From: Paenibacillus sp. MAEPY2
Lineage (GTDB): Bacteria; Bacillota; Bacilli; Paenibacillales; Paenibacillaceae
Direction of reading: 5' to 3'
Length of the DNA stretch: 64,000 nt
Assembly (NCBI RefSeq): GCF_000499205.1
Contig: NZ_AWUK01000030.1
Location: 124,001 to 188,000, forward strand
Shown in pieces: positions 21,742 through 59,907 of the stretch. The notes under the pieces were generated by a model. That model was not told the origin of the DNA, did no database searches, and saw only the letters and a list, made by a program, of their open reading frames with translations. The position numbers were made by a program, and so were the translations under genes. Within the stretch, counting starts at the first letter, position 1. The number at the start of each line of letters is the position of its first letter.

Positions 21742-21919
21742 GTTGGACTAAAGACGATTTACACTGACACTACGAAGACAGAACAACCTTCCAATCGCTG
21801 TTATCCCCAGATTTTTTTAATTCCCTTTTCTCAAGGGAAAATCCGGTGATAAAGGCGAACGCTTCGCTTTTTCAGGTTTCTTCTGTCCTCTCCGTTATCG
21901 TGTAAATGTTTTATTCAAC
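21742..21919 (-). repeat. Structured dispersed element, copy 1
   Basis: About 178 bp with terminal inverted repeats: GTTGGACTAAA at the left, and at the right a sequence whose complement is GTTGAATAAAA. Copies 2 (41110-41300) and 3 (59718-59907) align over nearly the whole length. As minus-strand RNA it can pair GACAGAA with TTCTGTC, AATCTGGGGATA with TATCACCGGATT, and fold a GCGAAGCGTTCGC hairpin and a TTCCCTT/AAGGGAA hairpin. No reading frame of note is present. It lies downstream of the Nudix gene, in the same sense. Confidence 0.8.
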
Positions 21920-21959
21920 GGATATATAAGTGAAAATCTAGGATGCAGGCGAACACTTC

Positions 21960-21998
21960 GCTTCTTCAGAATCGATTCCGTCCCCTTCACTACTTCCA
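21960..21998. repeat. Family 2 repeat, right half
   Basis: CTTCTTCAGAATCGATTCCG and CCACTACT-like flank match the right half of the copy at 13018-13092. Together with 21668-21709 it brackets structured element copy 1. Confidence 0.55.
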
Positions 21999-22166
21999 CT
22001 GTTCTTCAACATTAGGGTAGATAAGCTAAAATCTCAAAGAGAAGCATACTTGATTGCCTATCTCTGATATCTTTGCTTATATCACGTTGGTGTAATAAGC
22101 CTGTACTTATAGTGTACCCACCTCACCTATGGTGAATCCATGAACCCGTTCATAAACGTGACAGTT

Positions 22167-22625
22167 TTAATTCAAATCTCCCAGGTAAATGCGTGACGAA
22201 TTCTTATTTTGCAACAACTCACCAATTGTTTTCGGATATAAGCGAACCTTGGACAGCTCTTCAAGGGGAATCCATTCTACAGCTACCTGATGGTCGTCTG
22301 GACTGGAGCCTTCAAAGATCGTAGCTTTCGGATCTATTAACTTGCATTCAAAATAAAATTCAACCTGGTGCACATCGGCATCCCACTCGGCAAATTCGTG
22401 GTTTTTCCCAATGTACTCCCGGATATGCAGCAGTTCTCTCACGGTCACCGCCTGTCCAATCTCCTCCAGACATTCACGGGCAACCGCATCCTTGAGCTCC
22501 TCGCCCTTCTCCTGTCCTCCGCCGGGGAAAACATAAGCTGCACCATATTGATCCTCCAACCGGATCACCAGCAGACGTCCATCCTGTACGATAACGGCCT
22601 TCGCCGAATTACGTATCGGTTTCAT
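22167..22625 (-). CDS. Nudix hydrolase
   Basis: A 152-residue pyrophosphohydrolase. The Nudix box GX5EX7REUXEEXGU is at residues 36-58 (GGQEKGEELKDAV, then RECLEEIGQ). The N-terminal SAKAVIVQDGRLLVIR and later YFECKLI strands complete the fold. Substrate cannot be predicted; oxidised nucleotides or nucleotide sugars are typical. It starts behind GTAAGGAG at slightly long spacing and is separated from the pxp operon by 65 bases. Confidence 0.9.
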   Translation of the reverse strand: MKPIRNSAKAVIVQDGRLLVIRLEDQYGAAYVFPGGGQEKGEELKDAVARECLEEIGQAVTVRELLHIREYIGKNHEFAEWDADVHQVEFYFECKLIDPKATIFEGSSPDDHQVAVEWIPLEELSKVRLYPKTIGELLQNKNSSRIYLGDLN

Positions 22626-22690
22626 GTTATAGTTTCACTCCTTACAAATTCGTATAGTTCGCCCCTACCAGCCCTCGGTTACTGTAGCAA

Positions 22691-23461
22691 TTATCTAGCA
22701 ACTCCAGGCGCAGACAACGTAACTCCCTCAGATTCAAGCAACGTACGAATCTCTTGAGCAAATGTAAGAGCATGCGCACCGTCACCGTGAATGCAAATCG
22801 TCTCGGCTTTAATGGGGACAAGTGTGCCCTCCGCTGACAGCACGATACCCTCTTTCACCATGCGCAGCACTTGAGCAAGGGCTTTTTCCGTCTGCTCGAT
22901 GATTGCCCCGGGCTGACTGCGCGGTGTTAGTGTCCCATCAGGTGCGTAGGTCCGATCCGCAAAAACTTCACTCACGCTGCGCAGTCCAATGCGATCCGCT
23001 GCCTGTATCATTGCACTTCCGGCTAAGCCATATAGATACAGATCCGGTTGTACTTTATAAATAGCCTCGGCGATTCCCTCAGCGAGCCGATCATCTTCAG
23101 CAGCCATGTTATACAAGGCCCCATGAGGTTTCACATGATGCATGCGTCCTCCGGATGAGCGTACAAAAGCATCCAGCGCGCCAATTTGGTATACAACCAT
23201 GTCATAGGCTTCCCGTGGCGTAATGTCCATACGTCTCCTACCGAAGCCTTGCAAATCCGGCAGACCGGGATGGGCACCGATCGCAACCTGATGCTCCAAT
23301 GCTTGCTGCACCGTTTGCCGCATCGTTTCCGGGTCACCCGCATGAAATCCACAAGCGATGTTGGCTGAAGTAGTTAGCCTCAGAATCGCCACATCCGACT
23401 CCATTCGGTACACCCCGAAACTTTCACCCAGGTCACAATTGATATCCACCACCATGTTCAT
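22691..23461 (-). CDS. pxpA: 5-oxoprolinase subunit A (LamB/YcsF family)
   Basis: A 256-residue subunit of the ATP-dependent enzyme that opens 5-oxoproline (pyroglutamate) to glutamate. The family start [12 protein letters not shown] and motifs [27 protein letters not shown] and [10 protein letters not shown] are present. The ATG at 23461 overlaps the pxpC stop by four bases, and GGGG precedes it. It is the last gene of pxpB-pxpC-pxpA. Confidence 0.95.
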
Positions 23462-24486
23462 TGAAGGCCCCCCATTTCTGCCAATCTCCTGCGAACCAGC
23501 TGATCGGTCAGCTTCCAATTCAGCTCCTGTTCCAGGAATAGTTGCTGCGCTTCTTCATATGTAATCTCCTTAAAAGCAACTTTTGCCCCGGGCCGTGCCT
23601 GTGCCAATATTGGCAAATCCACGCGGGTCACCTGTGCGATTACAGGATAGCCTCCAATGGTCTGATGATCGGCCATCAATATAATGGGCTGACCGTCTGC
23701 TGGCACCTGCACCGTGCCATAGGTGACTGCTTCAGACAACCGATCCATTGGCTGACCGATTTCCAGCTTTGCACCTTCCAATCGATAACCCATCCGATCC
23801 GATTGGGGAGAGATCACATATCGTTCTTGATGGAATCGTTCAAGGCTATTTTTATCAAACTCTGCACTGTCCTTGCCCGCCATGACACGAATGACAGGAT
23901 GAGCTTGGTAGGCGGGCCATTCCCTGCTAGACAAATACCAGACAGGTGCATGCATCCGTCGGTTGTTCTTTTCAGCGTAAAGGCTCAGACTATGCAACGT
24001 CGCTTGCGCTTCGCGAGAAGCTTCCCCCACAGGCAACCTGTCGCCCACCTGTAAGGCACGCCCTTTCAGCCCACCAATACCTGTTTTGAGATCCGTGCTT
24101 CGGCTGCCCATGACCTCAGGTACTGCGGTTCCACCAGCAACCGCCATATAGGCCCGCAAACCAGAGTGGCATCGACCAAATCTCAGCACACTTCCAGCAA
24201 GAATCACGGTCGGACGCCATAGGGGAACAGGCAGGCCATCCACCGTTGCCGTCAGATCCGCTCCACATAAAGAGATCAGCTGATTTTCATGGAAATGAAG
24301 CTCCGGTCCCGTCATCGTCATCTCCAGCACAGCTGCATCACGGGAATTTCCAACCAATACATTCGCTGCTCTGGCTGCAAAGGTATCCATAACCCCACCT
24401 GGATGTATCCCATACCGGCGAAATCCCGTTCTTCCTTCATCCTGCACGGTGGATAACAGACCTGGGCGAATGACCTCAATACTCAT
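23458..24486 (-). CDS. pxpC: 5-oxoprolinase subunit C (biotin-dependent carboxyltransferase family)
   Basis: A 342-residue subunit with the KipA/AHS2 fold: [17 protein letters not shown] at the start, [18 protein letters not shown], then [18 protein letters not shown]. It acts with PxpB on the phosphorylated oxoproline intermediate. It overlaps pxpB by four bases and pxpA by four bases, so all three are translated together. Confidence 0.94.
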
Positions 24487-25193
24487 CGTTCGCCCTCCTT
24501 CTGTTCCAAATATTCCTGAAGTGATATTGACACAAAACGAACCCGATCACCCGCTGCAAGCAGGCTCGGGGGATCTTCCGTCGGACGAAATAGTGCCAGC
24601 GGCGTTCGACCAATACATTGCCATCCGCCGGGAGTCGATACCGGATAAACTCCGGTTTGTTTGCCACCAATGCCCACCGTTCCTGCTTCAACCCGAAGTC
24701 GAGGTGTGGGTCGTCTAGGCGTAGCAATCTTCTCCGATAATCCGCCCAGATAAGGAAAACCCGGTGCAAATCCAATCATGTGAACCAGGTAATCGCCAGA
24801 TGTATGAATAGCTATGACCTCATCTGGCGTAAGCCCATGTTCAGTAGCGACGTATTCCAGGTCGGGACCGAGTTCACCACCATAACATACCGGAATAATA
24901 ACTGTTCTGGTGTGATCCTCCGCTGCTTCTTCCATTCTATTCAAATGATGAAGCAGTACCCTGCATACCTCGTGGTACGGATTGATCAACGGATCATAGA
25001 ACAGCGTGACCGAAGCAAACGAAGGTAACCATTCGAAGACACCCGGTATAAGGCTTTTTTCCAGTAAAGCACATACCGACATCACCCTCCGGTGCACCGC
25101 TTCAGATATGGCATCCCCACAACGGATGATAACCCCTGTTTCGCCCAGAGGAGACAGCAAATCCTCAGTCCATGAATACGGCATTTCGGCCAT
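24483..25193 (-). CDS. pxpB: 5-oxoprolinase subunit B (KipI/AHS1 family)
   Basis: A 236-residue subunit. Key segments are LGETGVIIRCGD, IPVCYGGELGPDLEYVA, HTSGDYLVHMIGFAPGFPYLGGL and VSTPGGWQCIGRTPL. The Bacillus homologue was first described as the sporulation kinase inhibitor KipI; the operon with PxpA and PxpC supports the 5-oxoprolinase role. The ATG at 25193 behind GGAGGGGG is used. Confidence 0.94.
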   Translation of the reverse strand: MAEMPYSWTEDLLSPLGETGVIIRCGDAISEAVHRRVMSVCALLEKSLIPGVFEWLPSFASVTLFYDPLINPYHEVCRVLLHHLNRMEEAAEDHTRTVIIPVCYGGELGPDLEYVATEHGLTPDEVIAIHTSGDYLVHMIGFAPGFPYLGGLSEKIATPRRPTPRLRVEAGTVGIGGKQTGVYPVSTPGGWQCIGRTPLALFRPTEDPPSLLAAGDRVRFVSISLQEYLEQKEGER

Positions 25194-25301
25194 GCCATCC
25201 CCCTCCTTGTGCACAAGTTTATAATCCTTTGATCATTGTTTCTCCAAAGCCTGCAAAATAAGTGAACGGACAGCAGGGAAAGGCTCTGCTTCTTCCGTCT
25301 A

Positions 25302-25892
25302 TCACAACTCCTTGGAGGAATCCAGATGCACGCTGCAATTGTATAGCCCACACTGCCAGGATTCCGCTTCCCAAGAAATCCGGGTGATCGACGTGTTGGA
25401 CAGCTTTGCGCTCACATCAAGCTCAGGCACCAGACCTCGCAGAGTATTACGAAGAATGGCGCCATGACTGACAACGATGACTTTACCATTGGGATGCTGA
25501 CGTACAATATCTTCTAACGCGGCACTACCTCGCGCCATGCCTGCATCCGCAAGCTCCCGGCCCAAATCGAGATTACTCCAATCCGCTCCCCACCGGGCTA
25601 GACGCTCAGCTTCGGTCGTACCTTCCACCTGTCCACCGCCCATCTCACGTAGTCTCGGGTCCAACTGAATCTCCTGAATTCCCAAGCGATCTCCGATGAT
25701 GCTTGCCGTCTCACTTGCACGCTCCAGGTCACTTGCATAGATGGCATCCCATTTTTCCTCACTCAGTCTTGCGGCAAGCAATACTGCCTGTTCTCTTCCT
25801 TCCTGATCCAGCGGATTATCCGTTTGTCCCTGCGAACGTTTCTCTTTATTCCACGCCGTGCTTCCATGGCGAATCAATGCGATCTGTGTCAT
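25302..25892 (-). CDS. Histidine phosphatase family protein
   Basis: A 196-residue phosphoglycerate-mutase-like phosphatase. The catalytic RHG is at residues 8-10 (LIRHGSTAWN), with a second Arg in YASDLERASET and the second catalytic His in VVSHGA. The substrate is unknown; small sugar phosphates or cobalamin intermediates occur in the family. Its ATG overlaps the stop of the DinB-like gene by four bases. It is the last gene of the small-enzyme run upstream of pxpB, 108 bases away. Confidence 0.9.
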   Translation of the reverse strand: MTQIALIRHGSTAWNKEKRSQGQTDNPLDQEGREQAVLLAARLSEEKWDAIYASDLERASETASIIGDRLGIQEIQLDPRLREMGGGQVEGTTEAERLARWGADWSNLDLGRELADAGMARGSAALEDIVRQHPNGKVIVVSHGAILRNTLRGLVPELDVSAKLSNTSITRISWEAESWQCGLYNCSVHLDSSKEL

Positions 25893-26473
25893 TGCTGTTC
25901 CTCACCTTTTTCTATACGTAATTCATCATCTGTAAAATGTTTTCGTGCCTTCGGTTTGGCAAATTTGCCACCATTATATTGACTAGAACCGTTTCTCGGA
26001 ATGGAAAGACTGTTCCATGAGGTTTCTTTGAGCATTTTGGCTGCATAGATAATCTGTCCCACATGATAAGGATAGTGCGCCAATTGCCGGATGATTGCCT
26101 CCATAACGGTATGTCCTTCATTGCGAATATATATGATATGCGACAGTTGCTCCGGTGTAAAAGAACGAATGGCTCCAAGCAGACAGTTCCAGCCTTCCTC
26201 CCATTTGGCAAGCAGCTCTTCTCGGGTCGAGATATCATTCACGAATTCGGCATCTCGCTCACGCCACGGCTTCTCTCCATCAGTTGTCAGTACATCCGTC
26301 CAACGGGACAGCATATTGCCCCAGAGATGCTTCACAATAACCGCAATGCTGTTGGCATCTTCATTCCAGGATTGAAACAGCTGCTCAGACTCCAGTTGCT
26401 CCATAGCCTTCTCCCCAAGCTGCTTATAATACAGAAATTGCTTCTCGGCTGTATCCAGAAATACTTGATTCAT
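25889..26473 (-). CDS. DUF1572 / DinB-like protein
   Basis: A 194-residue predicted four-helix bundle. Conserved His positions in IAVIVKHLWGNM and IIRQLAHYPYHVGQIIYAAK are spaced as in metal-binding DinB/YfiT proteins. DUF1572 members are thought to be metal-dependent, thiol-linked enzymes, but function is not established. I take the ATG at 26473; a GTG two codons upstream is possible. Overlaps the phosphatase gene by four bases. Confidence 0.85.
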   Translation of the reverse strand: MNQVFLDTAEKQFLYYKQLGEKAMEQLESEQLFQSWNEDANSIAVIVKHLWGNMLSRWTDVLTTDGEKPWRERDAEFVNDISTREELLAKWEEGWNCLLGAIRSFTPEQLSHIIYIRNEGHTVMEAIIRQLAHYPYHVGQIIYAAKMLKETSWNSLSIPRNGSSQYNGGKFAKPKARKHFTDDELRIEKGEEQQ

Positions 26474-26506
26474 GTCCACGCGTTCACAACCCTTCGCAAA
26501 AAGTCT

Positions 26507-26836
26507 TTATTCAGGAAAGGAAAACGTCCCGTCCTCATTCGGTTCAAAGGAAATAACTTTTCGTACAGCGTCTAAATTAAGTTCACCATAAATATGTGGA
26601 AAAAGTTCATTCAACTCATACAGGTCCTCATACACCAGTTCCGGCTTCAAGTCCCTCTCATCAATACCAAGCAATAACAAATCCGTACGCCCTTGATAAA
26701 ATTGAGCCGCTACCCATGGAATTTGTTCTTTGGTGGAACAATGAATGAAACCATCCGTCTCCAGGCTATCCGGTGCATATACGCTCTGCTTGGATACCTG
26801 CTCCCATACCGCTCGGGAAATAATACTGTAGATCAT
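26507..26836 (-). CDS. DUF952 domain protein
   Basis: A 109-residue protein matching DUF952 along its full length: the start IYSIISRAVWEQ, then ETDGFIHCSTKEQIPWVA and PHIYGELNLDAV. Proteins of this family resemble ADP-ribosyltransferase-like folds in the glutathione S-transferase-associated group, but no activity is established. It is preceded by GGAGG and lies between the GNAT and DinB-like genes. Confidence 0.85.
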   Translation of the reverse strand: MIYSIISRAVWEQVSKQSVYAPDSLETDGFIHCSTKEQIPWVAAQFYQGRTDLLLLGIDERDLKPELVYEDLYELNELFPHIYGELNLDAVRKVISFEPNEDGTFSFPE

Positions 26837-26887
26837 TGTTCCGCCTCCTTCAATTTCTTCTATGTATCCTGCACGTCATTGGAAGTA

Positions 26888-27463
26888 TTATAGATCATCC
26901 CGGATACGTGAGTACAATTTTTGATCTGTAAACACACCTTTGATCTTCAATTGTTTGCGCAGTAAACCTTCAACTGACATGCCCAGCTTCTCCATCACTC
27001 GTGCAGATCCGATATTGCCTGCATTACATTTCCCCTCCAGCCGATTGCAGTCCAATTCCTGAAAACAGTATTCAACAATTGGCTGCATCGCTTCTGCCGC
27101 GAGGCCTTTGCCCCAATAACTGCTGGCTATCGCGTATCCCAGTTCGGCACTCTGCATGGGTTCATTAAGATGGAAAATACCACCTCGACCGATCAGCTTC
27201 CCCGTTTCCTTCAGAATAAAGGCCCATATATAGACAGTTTTCTTCTCATAATTGTCCAACACTCTTTGAATATATTGAACGGAGTCGTCCAACGTCTCAT
27301 GGCAGTTCCACAAACTTTGCTGACTCACCCTCGGATCGGAGGCAAACATAAAATAATCATCGAGGTCGTTAAGCGTAAGACGTCTCAGTACCAACCGCTC
27401 TGTCTCAAACTCGGGTGATTCTGCAAAAAGCTTCTCAATATTCACGTAAGCCCCACTCCCCAT
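26888..27463 (-). CDS. GNAT N-acetyltransferase (RimJ/RimL type)
   Basis: A 191-residue acetyltransferase. It shows the RimJ/L layout: ETERLVLRRLTLNDLDDYF, GYAIASSYWGKGLAAEAM (acetyl-CoA loop) and NIGSARVMEKLGMSVEG. The ATG at 27463 sits two bases after the DUF2809 stop, with AGAAGG inside that gene as ribosome site. It may acetylate a ribosomal protein N-terminus or a small amine; the target is unknown. Confidence 0.88.
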   Translation of the reverse strand: MGSGAYVNIEKLFAESPEFETERLVLRRLTLNDLDDYFMFASDPRVSQQSLWNCHETLDDSVQYIQRVLDNYEKKTVYIWAFILKETGKLIGRGGIFHLNEPMQSAELGYAIASSYWGKGLAAEAMQPIVEYCFQELDCNRLEGKCNAGNIGSARVMEKLGMSVEGLLRKQLKIKGVFTDQKLYSRIRDDL

Positions 27464-27465
27464 TA

Positions 27466-27864
27466 TCAAGCCTTCTCATTTCTCAGGAAATAACGGTCAA
27501 TCCCATACACAAACAGAATGCCGACAGCATACCTCAGCAGATCCATCGCCAGAAATCCATGTCCCAAAATAAGCGCACCCAGCACTGTTGAACGCACTTC
27601 GTTCAGCCAAGGGGTCTGAATTATTTGTGAACATTCGATAGCCCAGCTGAAAATCAGGCTAACTATCATCGCCCACTCTCTGCTGCGATTAATCCATAAC
27701 ATGCGTATCCCAAAATAGATCATCCCTGCCCACAAGGCGTCACCGAAATGCTCACGCACAAAAATCGGTAAAAGTGCACCAAAGTGCCTGGACGCCAACC
27801 CTGCCGCCATGGTTATGATCACTGCGGTGAAATAAATCAGCCTGTCTTTGCTAAATACGGTCAT
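27466..27864 (-). CDS. DUF2809 membrane protein
   Basis: A 132-residue protein with four hydrophobic helices. LASRHFGALLPIFVREHFGDALWAGMIYF and SWAIECSQIIQTPWLNEVR (shown here in parts) are typical of DUF2809. The family has no assigned function. It is tightly spaced with GrpB upstream and GNAT downstream. Confidence 0.85.
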   Translation of the reverse strand: MTVFSKDRLIYFTAVIITMAAGLASRHFGALLPIFVREHFGDALWAGMIYFGIRMLWINRSREWAMIVSLIFSWAIECSQIIQTPWLNEVRSTVLGALILGHGFLAMDLLRYAVGILFVYGIDRYFLRNEKA

Positions 27865-27870
27865 CACGAA

Positions 27871-28422
27871 TTAAATGCCCTCATCAAGCACTTTTAGAAT
27901 GAATTCCGTTTTGGCAGTGGTATAAGCTTCCCTATCATCCTTATTCTCATCAGCAAGCTTAACCTTTAGGGCTGCGTATACCTCAACCAGATCCGGGCGT
28001 TGTCTCAGCACGTCCCGAAACTGGATTTGGCGATCCCAACGTAACTCTTCTGGGCGCATCAGATGAAGATGTACAGCTCTCTTGCCATCTTTCACCCTGA
28101 CCCAGAATCGTCTGTATTCCCGACCATCCAGTTCAGGTGGAACGTAGTTCCATCCTACCGGATTCAACTGATCAGCAATCGAGTCCATGTCCTCCCATGA
28201 CTGCACCTCTGCCATCAAATCAATAATGGGCTTGGCGGGCAATCCCGGAATGGACGTGCTTCCGATATGTTCGAATTTATGAATATCGAACTGCTGCAAC
28301 AGGTTTCTCAACACCCTGATTTCTTCCTGAGCCAATAGCTCCCACATGGGATTGGCCTCAACAATCTCTACCGACTCTGTCGCCCACGCAGGCCAATTTT
28401 CCGGTTGCAAGTGATTTGTCAT
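27871..28422 (-). CDS. GrpB family protein (nucleotidyltransferase fold)
   Basis: A 183-residue protein. The segment FEHIGSTSIPGLPAKPIIDL, followed by VHLHLM, defines the GrpB/UPF0157 family, which has a nucleotidyltransferase-like fold. The Asp in PIIDL and the GSTS loop are intact. Substrate is unknown. Its start overlaps the stop of the small membrane protein by four bases. Confidence 0.88.
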   Translation of the reverse strand: MTNHLQPENWPAWATESVEIVEANPMWELLAQEEIRVLRNLLQQFDIHKFEHIGSTSIPGLPAKPIIDLMAEVQSWEDMDSIADQLNPVGWNYVPPELDGREYRRFWVRVKDGKRAVHLHLMRPEELRWDRQIQFRDVLRQRPDLVEVYAALKVKLADENKDDREAYTTAKTEFILKVLDEGI

Positions 28423-28622
28423 TCAGATGCTCCTTCCTTTGCAGGACTGAATTTCAATCGGTATTCTTCCAGATACTTCGAATAGGCTCGTTTCTTATTG
28501 TCCTCAATTGTGGCAATCATCCCGAGTGTTAGTATCGAAAGTAGGATGAGAAGAAGATACTTCACGTAAGCCAAACCATAGATATTGTTATCTGAGCTTA
28601 TAATTGAAGAATTCAGTTTCAT
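28419..28622 (-). CDS. Small single-helix membrane protein
   Basis: A 67-residue protein with one hydrophobic helix at about residues 20-40 (VKYLLLILLSILTLGMIAT) and a basic tail. I do not recognise a family. Support comes from the ATGA overlap with GrpB and its place at the head of the run of small genes. The ribosome site is weak. Confidence 0.5.
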   Translation of the reverse strand: MKLNSSIISSDNNIYGLAYVKYLLLILLSILTLGMIATIEDNKKRAYSKYLEEYRLKFSPAKEGASE

Positions 28623-28694
28623 CACGTCCAATGCCGTTTTTTGTTGGGTTTAAAACATAGGGCTTGTAAAAACTAATTTTTTTTATACCTAAAA

Positions 28695-28714
28695 GGGGCG
28701 TATGTCTACGCCCC
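28695..28714 (-). terminator. Terminator of the Ig-like repeat protein gene
   Basis: GGGGCGTA and TACGCCCC form a perfect 8-bp stem with a 4-base loop, and UUUU follows on the minus strand. Confidence 0.88.
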
Positions 28715-28774
28715 ATCTGTTTCTGTTCATGATGATGAAATGACCTCAATTGATTTACTTGATTCGATGAAACT

Positions 28775-30083: not shown

Positions 30084-30130
30084 ACGGAGAGGATAGAAAA
30101 AACCTGGAAAAGCGAAGCGTTCGCCTTTAT
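30084..30130 (+). repeat. Fragment of the structured dispersed element
   Basis: ACGGAGAGGATAGAAAAAAC and the following GGAAAAGCGAAGCGTTCGCC match the 5' third of the element (as RNA) in copies 1-3. The remainder is missing. Unlike the full copies, it is antisense to its flanking genes. Confidence 0.7.
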
Positions 30131-30202
30131 AAACGTTTTGAGATAATCAGGATAGATACGATGAGCAAAAAGAACATCACCAGCAACAGTTCGGGAAATA
30201 TT

Positions 30203-39697: not shown

Positions 39698-39727
39698 TAC
39701 ACCTAGTAATGCCCGTAACTTCATAGT

Positions 39728-39826
39728 TTCCCAGGGGAGTCGGAATTGGCCGGCTGAGAGTGTATCCCACCAAGATACTGACCCTTAGACCTGATCTGGA
39801 TCATGCCAGCGTAGGAATCGGAGTAT
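39728..39826 (+). promoter_or_regulatory. TPP riboswitch (THI element)
   Basis: The conserved segments GGGGAGTC, GGCTGAGAG, ACCCTTAGACCTGATCTGGA and CATGCCAGCGTAGGAA occur in order. It precedes an intrinsic terminator and the thiY gene, so thiamine pyrophosphate should shut off the operon. Confidence 0.96.
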
Positions 39827-39882
39827 ATCGAATTGGCCCAGCCTAGCCTCTTTGCTGAGTGCCACATCTCTAACGCCTGCAC

Positions 39883-40055: not shown

Positions 40056-41102
40056 ATGAAGATGAAATGGCGTAAAATGATGGGACTGCTGCTCTTGTGC
40101 GTGATACTGGTAACTGTGGCCGCTTGCGGCAGCAAAGAAGCTGCACCTTCAGGAGCGAACGGCAGCAGCAACACCGAAAACAGTAGCGAAGGTGACAATG
40201 CAGCCCTCAAGGACATTAAAGTGGTGCTGGACTGGACACCAAATACGAATCATACCGGCCTGTATGCGGCCGTAGATCAAGGTTTTTATAAAGCCGAAGG
40301 TTTAAATGTGGAGATTGTTCAGCCAGGTACCGGAGGCGCGGATACCATGGTTGCTTCGAACGAAGTGCCTTTTGGCGTAAGTTATCAGGAGAGTGTTACC
40401 CAGGCCCGCACACAAGGTGTACCGCTCGTATCCATCGCTGCTGTTATTCAGCATAATACATCCGGATTTGCTGCTCCGGTGGATCGAAACATCAAGTCTC
40501 CCAAAAATTTCGAAGGCAAAACCTATGGTGGCTGGGGCTCGCCAGTAGAAGAAGCCGTGATGCAGTCAATTATGGAGGGCGAAGGCGCGGATGTATCCAA
40601 AGTGAAAAATATTAACATGGGCGATGCAGACTTTTTCACCGCTGTGAAACGTGATATCGACTTTGCCTGGATTTTCTACGCATGGACGGGCATAGAAGCC
40701 GAACTGCGCGGCGAACCGATCGACATGCTGTATGTGAAGGATTATTCCGAAGCACTGGACTACTACACACCTGTGCTTGTGACGAATGAACAGACGATTC
40801 AGAATGATCCCGAGCTGGTTAAAGCGTTCTTGAAAGCGACCTCTGAAGGATATCAATATGCGATTGAACATCCCGAAGAAGCTGCCAACATTCTGATCAA
40901 GGCCGTACCGGATTTGGACAAGGATCTTGTACTCGCAAGCCAGAAATGGCTGAGTCCGAAATATCAGGATGACGCACCACGCTGGGGTGAGCAGAAGCAG
41001 GAAGTATGGCAGAACTACACGGATTGGATGTTTAGCAAAAAACTGCTCGACGAGCAGGTAGATGTGTCCAAAGCGTATACAAACGAATTTTTACCCCAAT
41101 AA
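40056..41102 (+). CDS. thiY: Thiamine-precursor (HMP-type) substrate-binding lipoprotein
   Basis: A 348-residue lipoprotein with lipobox Cys24 (TVAAC). The mature protein begins with the NMT1/THI5-like signature VVLDWTPNTNHTGLYAAVDQ and GFYKAEGLNVEIVQPG, typical of ThiY, which binds formylaminopyrimidine. A Ser/Asn-rich linker (30-48) precedes it. It is first in the THI-controlled operon with a permease and ATPase downstream. The ATG at 40056 lies behind AAGGAG at short spacing; 40062 is an alternative. Confidence 0.92.
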   Translation: MKMKWRKMMGLLLLCVILVTVAACGSKEAAPSGANGSSNTENSSEGDNAALKDIKVVLDWTPNTNHTGLYAAVDQGFYKAEGLNVEIVQPGTGGADTMVASNEVPFGVSYQESVTQARTQGVPLVSIAAVIQHNTSGFAAPVDRNIKSPKNFEGKTYGGWGSPVEEAVMQSIMEGEGADVSKVKNINMGDADFFTAVKRDIDFAWIFYAWTGIEAELRGEPIDMLYVKDYSEALDYYTPVLVTNEQTIQNDPELVKAFLKATSEGYQYAIEHPEEAANILIKAVPDLDKDLVLASQKWLSPKYQDDAPRWGEQKQEVWQNYTDWMFSKKLLDEQVDVSKAYTNEFLPQ

Positions 41103-41109: not shown

Positions 41110-41300
41110 CATATAAAACGAACTTAGTATTTACACGAGGACGAAGAGGACAGAAATAACGTGGAAAAGCGAAGCGTTCGCCTTTATCACCGGATTTTCC
41201 ATTTGGAGAAGGGAATCAAAAAATCTGGGGATAACAGCGATTGGAAGGTTATTCTGTCATCGAAGTGGCAAGTGTAACAGTCATTAGTTCATTTTATATA
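41110..41300 (+). repeat. Structured dispersed element, copy 2
   Basis: About 190 bp lying between thiY and the next gene of the same operon. Ends are inverted: ATATAAAACGAACTTAG at the left, and at the right the complement of ATATAAAATGAACTAA. As plus-strand RNA, GACAGAAATAAC pairs with GTTATTCTGTC, TATCACCGGATTT with AAATCTGGGGATA, and GCGAAGCGTTCGC folds on itself. It matches copies 1 and 3. No reading frame of note is present. Confidence 0.82.
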
Positions 41301-41324
41301 TTTCGAAAGGAAAAGTGATCTTTC

Positions 41325-50022: not shown

Positions 50023-50026
50023 ATGA

Positions 50027-52502: not shown

Positions 52503-52561
52503 AAAAAAAAACGGTGAACCTTCCCTTTCAGCTGCAACAGCCGATTCGAGAAAGTTCACCG
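52503..52561 (-). terminator. Terminator of the EamA gene
   Basis: CGGTGAAC (52512-52519) pairs with GTTCACCG (52554-52561), with further pairing inside, and eight or nine U follow on the minus strand. Confidence 0.88.
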
Positions 52562-52568
52562 CATAGCT

Positions 52569-53459
52569 TTAGATTTTCGCCACCTTGCTGCCCTTTACTT
52601 TAACATTCACAAGCAGGATGCTGGCTATGATCATAACGAGACCTGCGATCAGATTGACCGTCACTGACTCTCCCAGGAACAGTACACTGCAAAACAGGGC
52701 AATCAGCGGAATCAGGAACGTGAACGATCCTACCTTGCTGGCTTCGCCGGAGCTGACCAGTTTGAAGAACGCGAGCCAGCCCAACGCAATGACAAACACC
52801 GAGATAAACAGCATATCCAGTATAAAAGGAAGCACCCACTGTACATCAGCCCAGCTCTCTGTGACCGTACCCGTTAAGGTCAGTACAACTCCACCGATTA
52901 GAATCGGAATGGCTGTCATCCAGATTCCATCGACCTTCATAGAAGTTCGTTTCATATATACGGTTCCGATCGCCCAGCTAATTGCACTAAACAGCCCAAG
53001 CATAACCCCTTCAGGTGAAACTTTGCCTGTCATGCCACCTATACTGATCGTAGCCACCCCTGCAAAACCGAGCACCAATCCGGCAATTTTCATTCCATAC
53101 ATGGACTCGCCCAGCCACAACCAGGCCCCGATCCCAAGCAGCACAGGCTGTAGGAACACAATGGATGAAAATAATCCTGCCGGCACTTCAGTCAGCCCCA
53201 CGGTCTGAAAGCCGTAGAAGAAGATGATATTAAGCACCGCAGATATGGCATAGATATGCCAAGTTTGTTTCAGTCTCAGCGTTTTGTAGCGGGGAAAAGC
53301 ATACAATCCCAGCACCAAGCCCCCAATTAACAGGCGCATGCCTGCGAATATAAGCGGCGGTGTAAAATTTAATGCGTATTTGGTCAGGGGCCAGTTTACT
53401 CCCCACATGAGTACCAGAAAAGCCAGGACCCAGCCTGCTTTTGCACGTGATAAAGCCAT
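52569..53459 (-). CDS. EamA/DMT family transporter
   Basis: A 296-residue membrane protein with ten helices in two EamA repeats: VLMWGVNWPLTKYALNFTPP and ISWAIGTVYMKRTSMK. Members export amino acids or metabolites. It is divergent from a LysR gene 209 bases away, which probably controls it. Cargo is unknown. Confidence 0.88.
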   Translation of the reverse strand: MALSRAKAGWVLAFLVLMWGVNWPLTKYALNFTPPLIFAGMRLLIGGLVLGLYAFPRYKTLRLKQTWHIYAISAVLNIIFFYGFQTVGLTEVPAGLFSSIVFLQPVLLGIGAWLWLGESMYGMKIAGLVLGFAGVATISIGGMTGKVSPEGVMLGLFSAISWAIGTVYMKRTSMKVDGIWMTAIPILIGGVVLTLTGTVTESWADVQWVLPFILDMLFISVFVIALGWLAFFKLVSSGEASKVGSFTFLIPLIALFCSVLFLGESVTVNLIAGLVMIIASILLVNVKVKGSKVAKI

Positions 53460-53668
53460 ATGTCTATTCTCCTATCCGGCACACTTCTACAGGCGCAGTT
53501 TAATCAATCGTCACTTTATCCTGCGCTCTCTCGGTGCCTGCAAATCATTTGGAATCCGAACCAGACCCGTTATACATCTGTTCTTTGATCGTTCCGTTTC
53601 TCCATGATACAATAATGATTATAATAATTGAAATGCATGTTAATCATAAGGAGCATACCAAATCTGAT

Positions 53669-54556
53669 ATGAACAATTCACAGTTGCAGTTATTCGTGAA
53701 AATTGCAGAAACGGGAAGTTTCACCCGTGCGGGCCAAGAACTAAATATGACGCAGCCCGCAGTCAGTCGGGCCATTTCTTCGCTGGAGAATGAACTAGAT
53801 GTCACTCTAATCATACGGGATCGCAGGAATGGCATCGTGCTTACGGATGTGGGACAGCGGATTTTGGTCATTTTCCGCCGGATTTTACAGCAATTTGATA
53901 AGGTGCAGCAGGTCGTTGCCGCTGAGAAAGGATTAGAGATTGGTACGATTCGCATTGGCTCTTTCCCCATGTCATCCGCCCATTTGCTGCCGAAAATTAT
54001 CCGCTCCATTCGGGACCGCTATCCTCAGATTCAATTTGAGCTGCACGAGGGGAACATCCTTGAAATTCAGGAATGGCTAAGCTCACGGGCTATTGATGTG
54101 GCTCTCATTATTGCAACCGACAAAGAGCCCATAGATACCGCTTATGAGACACTCCCGCTGTATAGCGAAGAGATGCTGGCTGTGTTTCGGGACGATGAGC
54201 CCTTTGCAAATCAGGAAACCCTGCCCGTACAAATGCTGGACAAGCATCCCATGATCATCTGCAAAGGCGGTTACGAAGTGCCGATTGTGGATCTGTTCCA
54301 TCGAGCAGATGCCGAATTACATTTCGGATTTGTGGTGTATAACGTAAACACTTGTCTGAGCATGATTGAGCAGGGTCTCGGAGCCGCCATGCTGCCTGCC
54401 ATTTCTCTATCCTGGCTGCCTCCGGGTGTCAAAGCACTCCCGACGGAGCCGAAAGCTTACCGTAATATTGAAATTGCCGTTCCTTCACTTGTTGATGCTT
54501 CCCCTGCATCCCGGTTATTTATTGAGACGGCGCAGCAATTGTTTGGACAAGGTTAA
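53669..54556 (+). CDS. LysR family transcriptional regulator
   Basis: A 295-residue regulator. The N-terminal winged helix (LQLFVKIAETGSFTRAGQE, MTQPAVSRAISSLENEL) is followed by a substrate-binding domain with IRIGSFPMSSAHLLPKI. I chose ATG 53669 because it gives the standard LysR length; the nearest AAGGAG lies 16 bases before, farther than usual. It is probably the regulator of the divergent EamA gene. Confidence 0.9.
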   Translation: MNNSQLQLFVKIAETGSFTRAGQELNMTQPAVSRAISSLENELDVTLIIRDRRNGIVLTDVGQRILVIFRRILQQFDKVQQVVAAEKGLEIGTIRIGSFPMSSAHLLPKIIRSIRDRYPQIQFELHEGNILEIQEWLSSRAIDVALIIATDKEPIDTAYETLPLYSEEMLAVFRDDEPFANQETLPVQMLDKHPMIICKGGYEVPIVDLFHRADAELHFGFVVYNVNTCLSMIEQGLGAAMLPAISLSWLPPGVKALPTEPKAYRNIEIAVPSLVDASPASRLFIETAQQLFGQG

Positions 54557-54606
54557 CGGATCGATTGGCCTTCCAATGTTGCGCCAGTCGCTCCTTGTTC
54601 CCAATC

Positions 54607-54657
54607 AAAAAGGGCGCCCCATCGGTCATGAACATGACCTTATGGGACGCCCTTTTT
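54607..54657 (+). terminator. Terminator of the LysR gene
   Basis: AAAAAGGGCG pairs with CGCCCTTTTT, with CCCAT/ATGGG and GGTCATG/CATGACC pairing inside. Confidence 0.88.
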
Positions 54658-54745
54658 ATATTGTCCACCTCAGATGGACATCATTGAAGTGTTTTGCTTT
54701 TTACCAGCAGCAGCAGCAGCACAAAATGTCCTGATGATCTTAGCT

Positions 54746-55504
54746 TTACGCCTGATCCTGGCGAGCAAGTGCAGCCAGCGCGCGCAGCGCCGCTTCGATC
54801 TCACGCTCAACCGCATCGGCTACCGCATTTGTATGCGGATCATACTCTGCCGCCAAGTCGCTATCTGCAAAACCGTCGATAGCGACAATCGCCCCGGCAC
54901 GAGCACCGCGCAGTGTGCTTACGATGTAGAGCGCTGCAATCTCCATCTCAGCGGCAAGCGCACCCGCCTGCTTGTACTTGCGGTGAGGAATCTCTTCCAC
55001 CCCAGTGAAGAATGCATCCAGCGTAACGGTAATGCCCACGCCAACTTTACCTGCACTCGAAGCATCCACTCCAATTGCATGCTCACGAGTCGCCTCAATT
55101 AACGCTTGTGTAACACCAAGGTCTGCTACCGCAGGAAAACCATCGGGTACGAGCTGACGTGTCAGCCCGTCCGTACGCACAGCGGCCGTGCTGACGATAA
55201 CACTGCCCGCTGGATAATCAGCGGTATACGAGCCCGCTGTACCTACACGAATCAGGGTCGTTACCCCTGCACGGATTAGTTCCTCGAAGCAAACAGCCGC
55301 TCCGGGTGAACCTACGCCATGACTGACCACGGCCATGGGTACACCTTCGTACAATCCAACAAATGTGCGATACTCCCGGCTGAACGCCAGTTCTTTCGCC
55401 TGCTCCAGCTTACGGGAAATCTTCTCCGCACGTGCCGGATCCCCACAGACAATGGCGTATGCAGGCATATCTTCGGAATGAATTTGCAAAATAGGCATCA
55501 ACAT
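54746..55504 (-). CDS. Nucleoside phosphorylase (uridine/purine phosphorylase family)
   Basis: A 252-residue phosphorylase. Family segments are YAIVCGDPARAEKIS, SREYRTFVGLYEG, VSHGVGSPGAAVCFEEL, LIRVGTAGS and AAEMEIAALY. It splits nucleosides with phosphate to a base and ribose 1-phosphate. It starts two bases after the molybdopterin-enzyme gene and ends the nucleoside uptake cluster. Uridine against purine preference cannot be fixed from the sequence alone. Confidence 0.92.
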   Translation of the reverse strand: MLMPILQIHSEDMPAYAIVCGDPARAEKISRKLEQAKELAFSREYRTFVGLYEGVPMAVVSHGVGSPGAAVCFEELIRAGVTTLIRVGTAGSYTADYPAGSVIVSTAAVRTDGLTRQLVPDGFPAVADLGVTQALIEATREHAIGVDASSAGKVGVGITVTLDAFFTGVEEIPHRKYKQAGALAAEMEIAALYIVSTLRGARAGAIVAIDGFADSDLAAEYDPHTNAVADAVEREIEAALRALAALARQDQA

Positions 55505-55505
55505 C

Positions 55506-56177
55506 TTAATCAAACTCCTTCTTCGTCCATTCGTCTTCCGGAATCGGAATATCTTCACCCGAGAAGCGCTGCTCCTTGAACGGATCGGCAAAATGGTGGA
55601 AACCATTAACTTCCCAGAAGCCATTGCGGTCTTCTTTCATGAATTCCAGACCCCGTATCCACTTCGCGCTCTTCCAGAAGTAGAGTTGAGGAACCACCAA
55701 GCGCAATGGATAACCATGCTTTGGTGTGAGCGGCTCACCGTTAAATTTAAAGGCAAGCAATACATCGTCATGCATCAGTTCTTCGAGCGGAACGTTCGTC
55801 TCGTAATCATGATCCGCATGGATCATGACGTATTTCGCTTCGGGTTTGACGCCAAGAAGCTTGATGAAATCCGAGAATCGGATGCCTTCCCACGGTGTAT
55901 CAAACTTCGACCAGCGAGTTACACAATGAATGTCGCTCACCGTGTTCACTTGAGGCATCGCCTGAAGCTCGGCGAAGGAGAATACCTTCTCTTCTTCAAC
56001 CTCGCCGAATACTTTCAAGTCCCAGGTCGTGAGGTCGTATTCCGGCACTTCACCTTCATGCAGAATCGGGAATTTCTCGGTCAGTACCTGCCCCGGCGGC
56101 AGCCGGTCTCCGTGCTCGGCACCCGCTTTGGGTGCCGGGCTTTTCGTTTTTTTCAGACGTTCAGCCTTATTATGCAT
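55506..56177 (-). CDS. Sulfite oxidase-like molybdopterin oxidoreductase
   Basis: A 223-residue cytoplasmic-looking protein. The molybdopterin fold is marked by Cys85 (DIHCVTRWS), which would hold Mo, and by MHADHDYETNVPLEEL, LTPKHGYPLRLVVP and KSAKWIRGLEFM. No Tat signal is present; the N-terminal 35 residues are Lys/Pro-rich. It resembles YuiH of Bacillus. Its natural substrate is unknown. It is placed between the nucleoside permeases and the phosphorylase, all on one strand. ATG 56177 behind GGAGGA. Confidence 0.88.
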   Translation of the reverse strand: MHNKAERLKKTKSPAPKAGAEHGDRLPPGQVLTEKFPILHEGEVPEYDLTTWDLKVFGEVEEEKVFSFAELQAMPQVNTVSDIHCVTRWSKFDTPWEGIRFSDFIKLLGVKPEAKYVMIHADHDYETNVPLEELMHDDVLLAFKFNGEPLTPKHGYPLRLVVPQLYFWKSAKWIRGLEFMKEDRNGFWEVNGFHHFADPFKEQRFSGEDIPIPEDEWTKKEFD

Positions 56178-56222
56178 GTGTGATCCTCCTTCTTTATATG
56201 CTTTCAGCATAACATTCAGGAA

Positions 56223-57146
56223 TTAACGCGAGCTTCCGCCCGCTTTCAGTGCATCCTGTGCGTAGGTACGATCTTTGAAAAAGAACATCGCCACCAGTGT
56301 CACAATATACGGCAGCATCATGGTAAAGTGAGTTGGCAGCGCGAAGCCCTGCAGTCGGATACTGAGTGCTTCCATGAACCCGAACAGCACACTAGACCCC
56401 ATAACGCCAAGCGGATTCGCTTGCCCCAGCATGGTCGCTACCAATGCGATGAAACCGCGACCTGCGGTCATACCTTCGGTAAACATCGTAACCTGACCAA
56501 GTGATAGCTGTGCACCCGCCAAGGCGCACAGTACACCGCACATCAGGACTGCACCATATTGAATGCCGCGCACCTTGATGCCGATGCTCTGTGCTGCTAC
56601 CGGATTCTCGCCAACCGAGCGGAGACGGAACCCGGAGACACTTTTGAACAGATAAAATTGCAAGGCAATTACGATAATAATTCCAAGATACACGAGTGGG
56701 CTATGCCCTGAGATGACATCACCTACCCATGGAATGTCCTTAATAAGAGGGATATCCCATTTGGGGAGTCCCACCATATCTTTGTCGTAGTACGCACCCT
56801 TCACGTCAAAAATCGCCCGCAATGCAAAAGTCGTCAGTCCCGTCGCCAGAAAATTAAGCGAGATCCCGACTACTATCGCGTTTGCCTTCAGATTAATACT
56901 GATAAAGGCAAATAGCGCAGAGAACAACATAACGATCACAATCGAGAATATAACGGCCAGCAATACATTACCGAACAGATAGTTACCAACAATAGCGGAG
57001 AAAGCGCCGATCAGTACGAGTCCTTCCAGACCCACGTTGAACAGACCGACACGGGAGCACAAAGCCCCACCGAGCGCTGCAAGCAGAATCGGCGTCATAA
57101 TCCGCAGAGTAGAGCCAAACATGGCTGCATCAAACAGTTGTTGCAT
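56223..57146 (-). CDS. nupQ: Nucleoside ABC transporter permease (NupQ type)
   Basis: A 307-residue permease of the BPD_transp_2 type, with NVGLEGLVLIGAF, GFRLRSVGENPVAAQSIGI and MTAGRGFIALVATMLGQ. It corresponds to YufQ/NupQ in the Bacillus guanosine uptake system. It overlaps the upstream permease gene by 17 bases. Confidence 0.9.
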   Translation of the reverse strand: MQQLFDAAMFGSTLRIMTPILLAALGGALCSRVGLFNVGLEGLVLIGAFSAIVGNYLFGNVLLAVIFSIVIVMLFSALFAFISINLKANAIVVGISLNFLATGLTTFALRAIFDVKGAYYDKDMVGLPKWDIPLIKDIPWVGDVISGHSPLVYLGIIIVIALQFYLFKSVSGFRLRSVGENPVAAQSIGIKVRGIQYGAVLMCGVLCALAGAQLSLGQVTMFTEGMTAGRGFIALVATMLGQANPLGVMGSSVLFGFMEALSIRLQGFALPTHFTMMLPYIVTLVAMFFFKDRTYAQDALKAGGSSR

Positions 57147-58197
57147 TGGACTTTTTCTCCTTTCTCCGCTTCAGGAATGAATAACCGATCTGAGCCGATA
57201 CAAATAACGTCAACACCGCTTGGATGACACTGCCGACTTCCAGCGGCACATCCGTATTCCGTTCCATCCCCATGGCTCCTGTCTGCAACGCTGCAAGCAG
57301 AATTGCCGCCACAGCTGTTCCTAGCGGATGCGAGCGGGCAAGCAAGGTTGCCATGATGCCGCTCCATGCATAACTTGCGGAGGACAACGAGCCATCAAGG
57401 AAACGGTACTGGGTACCCAACACTTCCCCTGCACCCGCAAGACCTGCAAGTCCGCCACTAATGATCATGGACAGCATCATCATGCGAATGCGGCGCACGC
57501 CGCCATAGGTTGCAAAGGAAGGGTTACTACCCAGCATGCGGATCTCATAACCCGTTACCGTCTTGTGTGTGAACCAGTAGATGAGAATAGCCGCTACGAT
57601 AGCAATGATGAATCCGGCATGCAGTCCCATGCCCTGGAACAGCTTCGGCAGCCAGACACTCTGATCAATCATCGGCGTCTGTGCCATCGCCGCCGATCCG
57701 GTGCGGTCTTTGAACGGATAGGATACCATGTATCCTCCAAAATAAATCGCAATATAGTTGAGCAGCAGCGTTGTGATCAATAGATTCATGCCGAAACGAG
57801 CATCCAGCCAACCGGCAAACAGCGACCAAACTCCACCGGCAATGATTCCTGCCACAATGGCTGCAATACAGACAAACCAGCCTGGACCCGGCAGGTAGAG
57901 CGCCGTCAGCGCTGCACTAAGTCCACCGAGAACCATCTGTCCTTCGGCACCCATGTTGAAAAATCCGGCGCGGAACGCCAGTGCTACGCCCAGTCCCGCA
58001 AGAATAATTGGCGTCGAACGCGCTAATGTGTTGGTGAAGAAGTAGAAGTTGCCGAAGGCCCCTTTCCACATCTCCGCATACGTATCCACCACGGACCCGC
58101 CAACGACCAGAATGGCTACAGCACCTGCCAGCAAACCGATGAATACGGCAAGCAGCGGCTGTACGAGTCCGCGCAGTGTTTCTTTTACCCGATTCAT
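57130..58197 (-). CDS. nupP: Nucleoside ABC transporter permease (NupP type)
   Basis: A 355-residue permease with nine or ten helices, marked by FNMGAEGQMVLGGLSAAL, YEIRMLGSNPSFATYGGV and SYAWSGIMATLLARSHPLG. It corresponds to YufP/NupP. Its ATG overlaps the ATPase stop by four bases. Confidence 0.9.
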   Translation of the reverse strand: MNRVKETLRGLVQPLLAVFIGLLAGAVAILVVGGSVVDTYAEMWKGAFGNFYFFTNTLARSTPIILAGLGVALAFRAGFFNMGAEGQMVLGGLSAALTALYLPGPGWFVCIAAIVAGIIAGGVWSLFAGWLDARFGMNLLITTLLLNYIAIYFGGYMVSYPFKDRTGSAAMAQTPMIDQSVWLPKLFQGMGLHAGFIIAIVAAILIYWFTHKTVTGYEIRMLGSNPSFATYGGVRRIRMMMLSMIISGGLAGLAGAGEVLGTQYRFLDGSLSSASYAWSGIMATLLARSHPLGTAVAAILLAALQTGAMGMERNTDVPLEVGSVIQAVLTLFVSAQIGYSFLKRRKEKKSNATTV

Positions 58198-59693
58198 ATC
58201 CGCTCTTTCCCTCCTGCCATCAACAAGCTGATCTGTTCTTCTGTTGCTTCATCTGCCTTCAGTTCCCCAGCGATTCCGCCTTCATACATGACAATAATTC
58301 GATCGGATAATTGCAAAATCTCGGACAATTCGGATGAAACGAGCAGAATTCCTGCACCCTCATTCCGTTTGCGCAGCAATTCGGCATGAATGGTTTCCAT
58401 TGCTCCAATATCTACACCCCGTGTAGGTTCAGCCGCAATGAGAAACGGTGTATCCTGGGCAAATTCACGAGCGGCAATCAGCTTCTGCAAGTTACCACCG
58501 GAAAGGAACTGTGCCTTCGTTTCCGCAGAACCCGTCTTGATGCTGAACTGCTTGATCCAGTTCTCCACCATGGTCCGTGCTGCCTTCGCTTTAATGATAC
58601 CTCGTGATTGAAGCCGGTGATGATGGCCCATCAAGCCATTCTCACGAACGCTTGCATCCTTCGCCGCTCCCCACATATAACGGTCTTCCGGGATATGGGC
58701 AAGTCCAAGTTCCCGAATGCGACGCACCGGCCAGTTCGTCGTATCCTGCCCTGACAACAGGACGCGGCCGCTATCCGACTTACGCAGTCCGGCAATGATC
58801 TGAATTAATTCAGACTGACCGTTCCCGGAAATACCCGCGATCCCAACGACCTCACCTTTCCGAACTTCCAAATGAATATCCTTGAGTGCGGAACGGTCCT
58901 CTGCCCCTGACAAACTCACTGCTTCCACCTGAAGCACCGCTTCTCCCGGAACGGATGGCTGCTTGTCCATACGTACCAACTCACGTCCAACCATTAAGCG
59001 GGATAACTCCTCCACGTTCGTATCTTTCGCTTCCAGCGTACCTGTCACCTGACCATCACGAAGAACCGTGATCCGGTCTGCCACATCCATGACTTCCTGC
59101 AGCTTGTGCGTGATCAATACAAAGGTTTTGCCCAGCTTGGCTAGAGATTTCATATTCGCAAGCAATTCTTTCACTTCCAGCGGTGTCAGTACCGCTGAAG
59201 GTTCATCCAATATAATGATATCTGCACCCTGATGCAGCACCTTGAGAATTTCAACTCGCTGCTGCATGCCCAGAGGGCATTCAAATACTTTTTTCCACGG
59301 ATCAACTGGCATGCCATACGTTCTGCCCAGCTCATTCACCTGGGCCGCTGCCTGTTTGCGGTCAAATACACCTGCAGCAGACGGTTCACGGCCGATCACG
59401 ATGTTCTCAGCAACCGTAAAGGAAGGAAACAGCATGAAATGCTGGTGCACCATGCCGATACCGCTTGCCATGGCCTGAGACGGGGTAGCGAAGCTTACCT
59501 CACGTCCACGAACTTTGATTGTGCCTGATGTCGGTTGCTCCATTCCATACAACATGCGCATCAGGGTTGTTTTACCGGCTCCGTTCTCACCCACGAGGGC
59601 ATGAATCTCTCCTTCTCGCAAATTAAAACGGATGTCCCGATTAGCGGTGAAGCCGCCGTATTTCTTCGTAATCTGCTCCATCTCCAACAGCAT
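58194..59693 (-). CDS. nupO: Nucleoside ABC transporter ATPase (NupO type)
   Basis: A 499-residue protein with two ABC domains. The first has Walker A GENGAGKTT at 35-43, LGMQQRVEI and IIILDEPSAVLT. The second has the degenerate Walker A GISGNGQSE and the signature LSGGNLQK, as is usual for sugar and nucleoside ABC ATPases. It corresponds to YufO/NupO. A copy of the structured element lies just ahead of it. Confidence 0.93.
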   Translation of the reverse strand: MLLEMEQITKKYGGFTANRDIRFNLREGEIHALVGENGAGKTTLMRMLYGMEQPTSGTIKVRGREVSFATPSQAMASGIGMVHQHFMLFPSFTVAENIVIGREPSAAGVFDRKQAAAQVNELGRTYGMPVDPWKKVFECPLGMQQRVEILKVLHQGADIIILDEPSAVLTPLEVKELLANMKSLAKLGKTFVLITHKLQEVMDVADRITVLRDGQVTGTLEAKDTNVEELSRLMVGRELVRMDKQPSVPGEAVLQVEAVSLSGAEDRSALKDIHLEVRKGEVVGIAGISGNGQSELIQIIAGLRKSDSGRVLLSGQDTTNWPVRRIRELGLAHIPEDRYMWGAAKDASVRENGLMGHHHRLQSRGIIKAKAARTMVENWIKQFSIKTGSAETKAQFLSGGNLQKLIAAREFAQDTPFLIAAEPTRGVDIGAMETIHAELLRKRNEGAGILLVSSELSEILQLSDRIIVMYEGGIAGELKADEATEEQISLLMAGGKERI

Positions 59694-59717
59694 ATCTCGC
59701 GTTCTCTCCTCTCGGTC

Positions 59718-59907
59718 TATATACGTTCAACTAAAGCATATTTACACTAGCCACTACGATGACAGAACAACCTTCCGATCGCTTATCCCCAGATTTTTTT
59801 ATTTTTTTTCCAAAGGGGAAAATCCGGGGATAAAGGCGAACGCTTCGCTTCTCCAGGTTTTTTCTGTCCTCTCCGTTATCGGGTAAATGTTTAGTAGAAC
59901 ATATATA
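59718..59907 (-). repeat. Structured dispersed element, copy 3
   Basis: About 190 bp between the nucleoside-binding lipoprotein gene and nupO. Ends are inverted: TATATACGTTCAACTAAA at the left and the complement of TATATATGTTCTACTAAA at the right. As minus-strand RNA it folds GACAGAA/TTCTGTC, a 13-bp TATCCCCGGATTT/AAATCTGGGGATA stem, and a GCGAAGCGTTCGC hairpin. It matches copies 1 and 2. Confidence 0.82.

Follow-up and report, generated by a model that had tools for sequence, protein, structure and literature searches.

A mobile intergenic cassette of Paenibacillus and its order with a conserved RNA fold and a putative cis-acting role on messenger RNA

The stretch of Paenibacillus sp. MAEPY2 DNA analysed here (64,000 nucleotides, contig NZ_AWUK01000030.1, positions 124,001 to 188,000; the window) carries three full copies of a dispersed element of about 190 bp, which is comprised of a core of about 154 positions and of outer arms. 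The explanation that we favour, and hold to be reasonably likely, is that the element is a non-autonomous mobile cassette, the sense RNA of which is kept as a putative cis-acting module of the messenger RNA (mRNA). Three features taken together, mobility, a conserved fold and fixed copies that diverge little, fit such a cassette with a role of its RNA in cis. A preliminary description of this DNA had located the three copies and recognised them as repeats of one another, and the covariance model R2 recovers all three as full copies:

21737 to 21928, minus strand: copy 1, A-type, inside a C-type element; R2 core 21757-21908 minus, 148.0 bits.
41111 to 41302, plus strand: copy 2, A-type, sense; R2 core 41128-41279 plus, 135.2 bits.
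59717 to 59908, minus strand: copy 3, A-type; R2 core 59740-59889 minus, 144.1 bits.

The inverted ends that had been described are terminal inverted repeats, similar in sequence to CTATATAAATTGAACTAAA and TTTAGTTCAATTTATATAG in well-kept A-type copies. The element had also been said to have no coding capacity, and no conserved reading frame was found in 40 copies, in which the longest closed open reading frame varies from 0 to 60 aa per strand.

Mobility of the cassette is supported, at the level of sequence comparison, by filled and empty sites, by polymorphic sites and by nesting. At the locus L002 the window genome (G000, a draft of 129 contigs) is filled and ten of ten close relatives, with flanks 89-96% identical, are empty. 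Compared with G057, the window genome has 192 bp more at this site, around TTTTCTATATCTATTCACAG, which is a clean insertion relative to the empty relatives. Four other sites are polymorphic. Among the same ten relatives, the L016 site is filled in three and empty in seven, and the L003 site is filled in four, empty in five and occupied by a 5'-truncated copy in one (G020). The site of copy 2 was compared in 43 of 75 genomes, namely the window genome, 28 of the best other matches and 14 genomes fetched by place. Its state, assigned by motif rules that score two chimeric copies (G041 and G033) as B and two stacked sites (G004 and G069) as A, is A-type in 14 genomes, B-type in 18, empty in 7, decayed in 2 and other in 2; the empty share is that of a non-random sample because the 14 were fetched partly for an alignment gap. 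On a tree of the upstream gene alone, this site requires no fewer than 15 changes when A, B and empty are distinguished, and no fewer than five for presence alone. Because 17 of the 40 inner branches of this tree are open, and because recombination is likely, such counts indicate turnover and leave its mechanism aside. Near-identical genomes differ in type (B in G058 and A in G059; A in G015 and B in G016). At the copy-3 site, where the states were entered by hand from site comparisons, ten relatives have an empty allele (94-97% identity on one side and 90-94% on the other), and the same tree requires at least 12 changes of presence and absence. Nesting is seen at copy 1, which splits a C-type element in its apical part; blastn finds the two halves of that element on either side of the copy. 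The preliminary description had advised a search for occupied and empty sites, and these are found at L002, L016, L003 and the sites of copies 2 and 3. It had left the choice between a unit resembling a miniature inverted-repeat transposable element (MITE), a regulatory RNA, or both. The sites and the nesting bear out the MITE-like part, and covariation and low core divergence bear out a structured RNA; a regulatory role is kept here as putative.

The transcript of one strand is predicted to fold as a long rod. Its two internal loops are largely conserved, and their motifs are roughly ARCGGAG opposite CGNAGNG, and GAGAAGCGNAGCGTTCGCCTTT opposite AACAGCGATCGGAAG. RNAalifold gives 42 pairs for 28 cores, with change on both sides in 11 of them. 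Covariation was assessed in 77 distinct sequences from the window genome and eight other genera by a home-made test similar to R-scape, a kind of test that the preliminary description had called for, with a tree-based null, 60 simulations and a cut-off at the 95th percentile of the simulated maximum. The significant column pairs number 15, and every one lies within the proposed helices; the covarying helices include the outermost arm, which shows all four Watson-Crick pair types. Since the alignment had been fitted to model R1, a structure-blind realignment with MAFFT is a control that matters; in it the best 23 pairs are all structural. The single-strand motifs of both internal loops are largely common to the genera sampled, and a 2-bp GC-GNA-GC stem within the loop shows slight covariation (GC in 72 and AT in 4 of the 77 sequences). 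The 3418 base-pair cells comprise 3091 Watson-Crick, 108 G-U, 46 A-C and 173 other combinations, and the prevalence of G-U over A-C favours the strand that is plus at copy 2. The predicted RNA fold of copy 2 is better than those of 200 out of 200 shuffles (z -4.0).

One stem differs from the fold first described, in which a local GCGAAGCGTTCGC hairpin was taken as conserved. The five pairs of this hairpin are standard in 321 of 384 cells and show no both-side change. The hairpin is displaced by a long-range pairing in which TCGC joins the downstream GCGA of CAGCGATCGG; here 304 of 307 cells in the 77 sequences hold standard pairs, with compensations, and both-side changes are seen in L011, L019, L022 and L023. 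The compensated change reported earlier, TAAC/GTTA in copy 2 for AACC/GGTT in copies 1 and 3, stands in so far as the pairing is preserved; in copy 2, however, R2 flags one pair of this stem as non-standard.

The core is also less divergent than its surroundings. Seven pairs of orthologous copies from different genomes were chosen out of ortholog groups and compared with flanks of up to 700 nt per side that are mostly genes. The core has 31 differences in 1074 positions, the outer 26 nt of each side 28 in 361, and the flanks 968 in 9254, the core being below the flanks in all seven pairs. For the A-type at the copy-2 site, the mean core distance among 11 of the 14 A genomes is 0.023, compared with 0.430 for fourfold sites in the gene upstream, and the core is lower in 55 of 55 pairs. 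The B-type core (16 of the 18 B genomes) has 0.108 against 0.428, is lower in 120 of 120 pairs and is below the all-site distance of the gene in 81 of them. These values bear on the view that the element is a purely selfish MITE without host function, whose fold is needed as DNA, as a hairpin substrate of the transposase, and whose antisense insertions are purged for disturbing transcription. The terminal inverted repeats, the filled and empty sites, the nesting and the failure to find a conserved reading frame all agree with this view, as do empty sites that are tolerated and neighbouring genes that share no theme. Selection for transposition, however, would be expected to leave individual fixed copies unconserved, and in every one of the seven pairs the core diverges less than the flanks. 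Homogenisation of the copies provides no way out: paralogous cores within the window genome differ by 0.166 on average, which does not fit it when set against the 31 differences in 1074 positions between orthologs. A purely selfish element appears rather unlikely.

The family is abundant and widespread. Model R1, built from the 28 cores of the window genome, gave 107 matches at E<=0.01 in that genome, where 150 of 2812 candidates were scored; seven of these are antisense echoes and several are contig-end fragments, which leaves about 100 places. The preliminary description had staked its reading on further copies and on pairing being kept in them. The covariance-model search of the genome yielded these many copies, and pairing is kept in the additional ones, save in the two chimeras. 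All 75 genomes examined from the genus contain the family (E<=1e-3), as do 242 of 295 genomes and 13 of 19 genera of the taxonomic family sample (E<=1e-6) and, with R2, 247 of 296 genomes and 34 of 48 genera of the order sample (E<=1e-4). In the class sample R2 matches 27 of 299 genomes, all 27 of them in the window's own family; the groups of 252 non-matching genomes were not visible, and this rate says nothing about the Bacillus cereus group, whose presence in the sample cannot be told. Because the large searches scored few candidates per genome, with stricter filters, their copy numbers are lower bounds, and because their calibration was short, their E-values are rough. When named genomes were scanned for the pattern, 107 stretches matched, and the 80 listed are all Paenibacillus. 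Among 50,697 phage records copy 2 has no blastn match; plasmid records contain two partial matches, both in Paenibacillus, and the element pattern is present in 24 IMG/VR contigs. The only three Rfam matches of the window at gathering score are riboswitches located elsewhere than on the element, and one copy with its flanks, searched at E<=5, gave seven hits, all below gathering score and to microRNA and snoRNA families only. No published account of the family was recognised in the titles and abstract beginnings of the open-licence literature, which is not proof of absence. A genome report on P. vortex mentions uncharacterised short repeats at scaffold ends (PMC3012674), which may be the present family. 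In the window genome, contigs C14, C25, C28, C34, C35, C37 and C38 end in a copy or within about 70 bp of one.

In the window genome the copies lie mostly between genes read in their own direction. Every count of context depends on gene calls from a home-made finder, checked by eye. Out of 83 places in the window genome, 52 are between two genes on the strand of the element and 6 between two genes on the opposite strand (52:6, p 3e-10), with 8 divergent, 7 convergent, 9 at a contig or locus edge and 1 inside a called gene. L005 and L013 appear to be a single copy at two contig ends; both are in the edge class, which leaves the 52:6 ratio unchanged. Elsewhere in the genus, at 29 places, sense exceeds antisense by 21:3, or by 12:2 without recognised orthologs. 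The start of the downstream sense gene is within 65 nt of the core in 37 of 60 cases. Of the 24 IMG/VR contigs (L244-L267), 18 were examined: the preceding gene is always sense (18 of 18), as is the following gene where one was called (17 of 17), but these cases are not independent, the contigs representing a few recurring gaps of operons that we take to be phage-tail-like from the sequences of their genes. Replication-strand bias was considered as a cause of the orientation and rejected: in 20 of the 63 places of G155, inspected by eye with the contig start taken as the origin, each half contains 5 plus and 5 minus copies.

Pfam showed no functional theme among the proteins scanned, which were 20 of the 34 chosen downstream of copies and 10 of the 23 chosen upstream. 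Neighbouring pairs in the window genome include adenylosuccinate lyase and SAICAR synthetase, YycH and YycI, and class II aldolase and arabinose isomerase, and other neighbours are a histidine kinase and response regulator, SecA and a thiamine transporter; these are housekeeping genes. A shared theme is what would be expected of a dedicated cis-regulatory RNA, a riboswitch-like or protein-binding leader that defines a regulon and spreads mainly via recombination. Conserved internal loops and covarying structure on the coding-sense strand argue for such a leader, together with the sense bias of the window genome, the spacing to start codons and the low divergence. It is nevertheless improbable, given the 30 proteins scanned without a theme and the clean filled and empty sites and nested copies, which require a means of moving. 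A cassette for recombination, in which a folded single DNA strand would be the substrate of a recombinase and the A, B and C types would be exchanged as with integron attC, is compatible with the strand-specific wobble and with the different types at the copy-2 site of near-identical genomes, but is very improbable, as ordinary homologous recombination between alleles common to several species explains the swaps and the G041 and G033 chimeras resemble homologous crossovers.

Under the mobile-cassette explanation, the cassette would insert in the gap that separates the stop codon of one gene from the ribosome-binding site of the following one and would then be co-transcribed, and selection at the level of the host would retain it because its RNA acts in cis on the mRNA. 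The RNA probably does something to the messages that carry it. As the neighbouring genes have no theme, a general action is most likely. It may be that of a binding or processing site which sets the stability or the relative output of the downstream cistron, for example a 5' barrier or a cut site for RNases. Such a general effect on mRNA fits the absence of a gene theme, the position before start codons and the tolerated empty sites. A more specific form, in which the internal loops are recognised by a dedicated, order-specific factor or belong to a ribozyme, and the cassette is a sense-kept, swappable part that sets expression, is tentative.

Several observations weigh against the mobile-cassette explanation. 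Outside the genus the orientation bias is only suggestive, strong as it is in the window genome: sense to antisense is 14:9 in 32 places of other genera (p 0.40) and 18:9 in 40 further places (p 0.12), neither of them significant, and 32:18 in all. The reverse strand of copy 2 folds well too (z -5.3). The pair 30-124 holds 15 of the 26 A-C cells of the inner helices and is doubtful, and the chimeras G041 and G033 have a broken inner P2 stem. Recent transfer of the cassette between species could in part explain why A-type cores diverge so little at the copy-2 site; the result of the seven pairs is less exposed to such transfer. Empty sites in many relatives mean that single copies are dispensable. 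Target duplication is not established: at L002 the extra DNA has a 7-bp repeat, TATCTAT, on its two sides, the register of which is ambiguous; 13 copies show no signal (best z 1.9), and 44 copies a weak one (z at best 3.3 among 294 settings).

The window contains, besides the three full copies that score high with R2, two further pieces. These, the split element around copy 1 and the genes next to copies 2 and 3 are located as follows:

13010 to 13098, minus strand: C-type element without the apical arm (P3); R2 43.8 bits, sequence and blastn.
21668 to 21731, minus strand: 3' half of the C-type element split by copy 1; blastn.
21932 to 22002, minus strand: 5' half of the same element; blastn of four C-type copies.
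30084 to 30135, plus strand: truncated A-type copy, 5' half only; 88% identity to copy 2 over 52 nt.
40056 to 41102, and from 41325: NMT1/THI5-like gene and thiamine-binding-protein gene on the two sides of copy 2; gene calls and Pfam.
58194 to 59693, minus strand: ABC-transporter gene in the same sense as copy 3, its start codon about 24 nt past the end of that copy; context and Pfam.

The 5' half of the split element is matched by positions 1-72 of L112a at 22001-21930 and by positions 6-72 of L115 at 21997-21932, and the 3' half by positions 83-146 of L119 at 21731-21668 and by positions 106-143 of L112a at 21707-21670. The truncated copy scores just 13.2 bits with R2 (E 0.31). In the element at 13010-13098 the absence of the apical arm leaves the two sides of the conserved loop directly joined. 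Other copies are irregular as well. The chimeras at the copy-2 site (L186 in G041 and L188 in G033) are A-type in their left half and B-type in their right, and at the same site in G004 and G069 (L208 and L210) at least two elements are stacked or nested in one intergenic gap. L020 (1974-2170), between the adenylosuccinate lyase and SAICAR synthetase genes, has an intact core and an outer arm unlike the consensus ends. Some copies (L036 at 1926-2118, L026 at 715-907, L030, L037-L040, L118 and L134) carry, at one of two spots of the main loop, a secondary insert of about 39 nt with a hairpin of its own (AAAAGCTTTCTGAAAGAAAGCT) and a piece resembling the GNA loop; the insert is absent from orthologous copies elsewhere (L036 compared with L074 and L075, L026 with L089). 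Rfam places a thiamine pyrophosphate (TPP) riboswitch at 39723-39835 plus, ahead of the thiamine genes around copy 2, and two glycine riboswitch aptamers in tandem at 5884-6153 minus.

MITE-like repeats and RNA-structured repeats are each already known as kinds. Repeats of the bcr1 type occur in Bacillus of the B. cereus group. One account describes bcr1-bcr18 of that group as short intergenic repeats, of which bcr1-3 are MITE-like and often located in untranslated regions or operon gaps, bcr10 and bcr18 have conserved RNA structure, and bcr3 correlates with a longer half-life of the mRNA (PMC3446304). The last correlation, as given there, is a precedent for the kind of effect proposed and is not evidence for the present element, the likeness being one of analogy. 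The present family, compared by description, differs in being order-wide, in uniting mobility and covarying structure in one element and in having different types at one site in near-identical genomes. The earlier proposal of a Paenibacillus analogue of bcr holds as an analogy, but not as regards the single genus, since the family spans the order. ERIC, RUP, BOX and Correia are short non-autonomous intergenic elements with inverted ends, and by description they share with the present element small size, such ends and intergenic placement; we know of neither conserved internal loops nor order-wide spread for them. REP and REPIN sequences with their RAYT transposases are described as dispersed palindromic units of intergenic DNA (PMC3116915, PMC3733652), and the 20-40 bp given there for REP (PMC3733652) compare with about 190 bp here. 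Riboswitches and other cis-regulatory RNAs of Rfam are likewise structured RNAs upstream of start codons, whereas the element has no Rfam match at gathering score and no common gene function.

The family thus described has about 100 copies per genome here, occurs in 34 of 48 sampled genera of the order, occupies gaps of housekeeping operons and has no Rfam match. It also has a bearing on genome assembly, as the breaks of several contigs of the window genome coincide with or adjoin copies. If the RNA acts on the mRNA, the expression of operons in these bacteria could not be read without the cassette, and relatives that have type A, type B or an empty site at the same place would be natural experiments on whether the host has come to use a mobile repeat. 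If the tentative reading of a swappable, expression-setting RNA were true, a whole bacterial order would tune its operons with interchangeable RNA cassettes.

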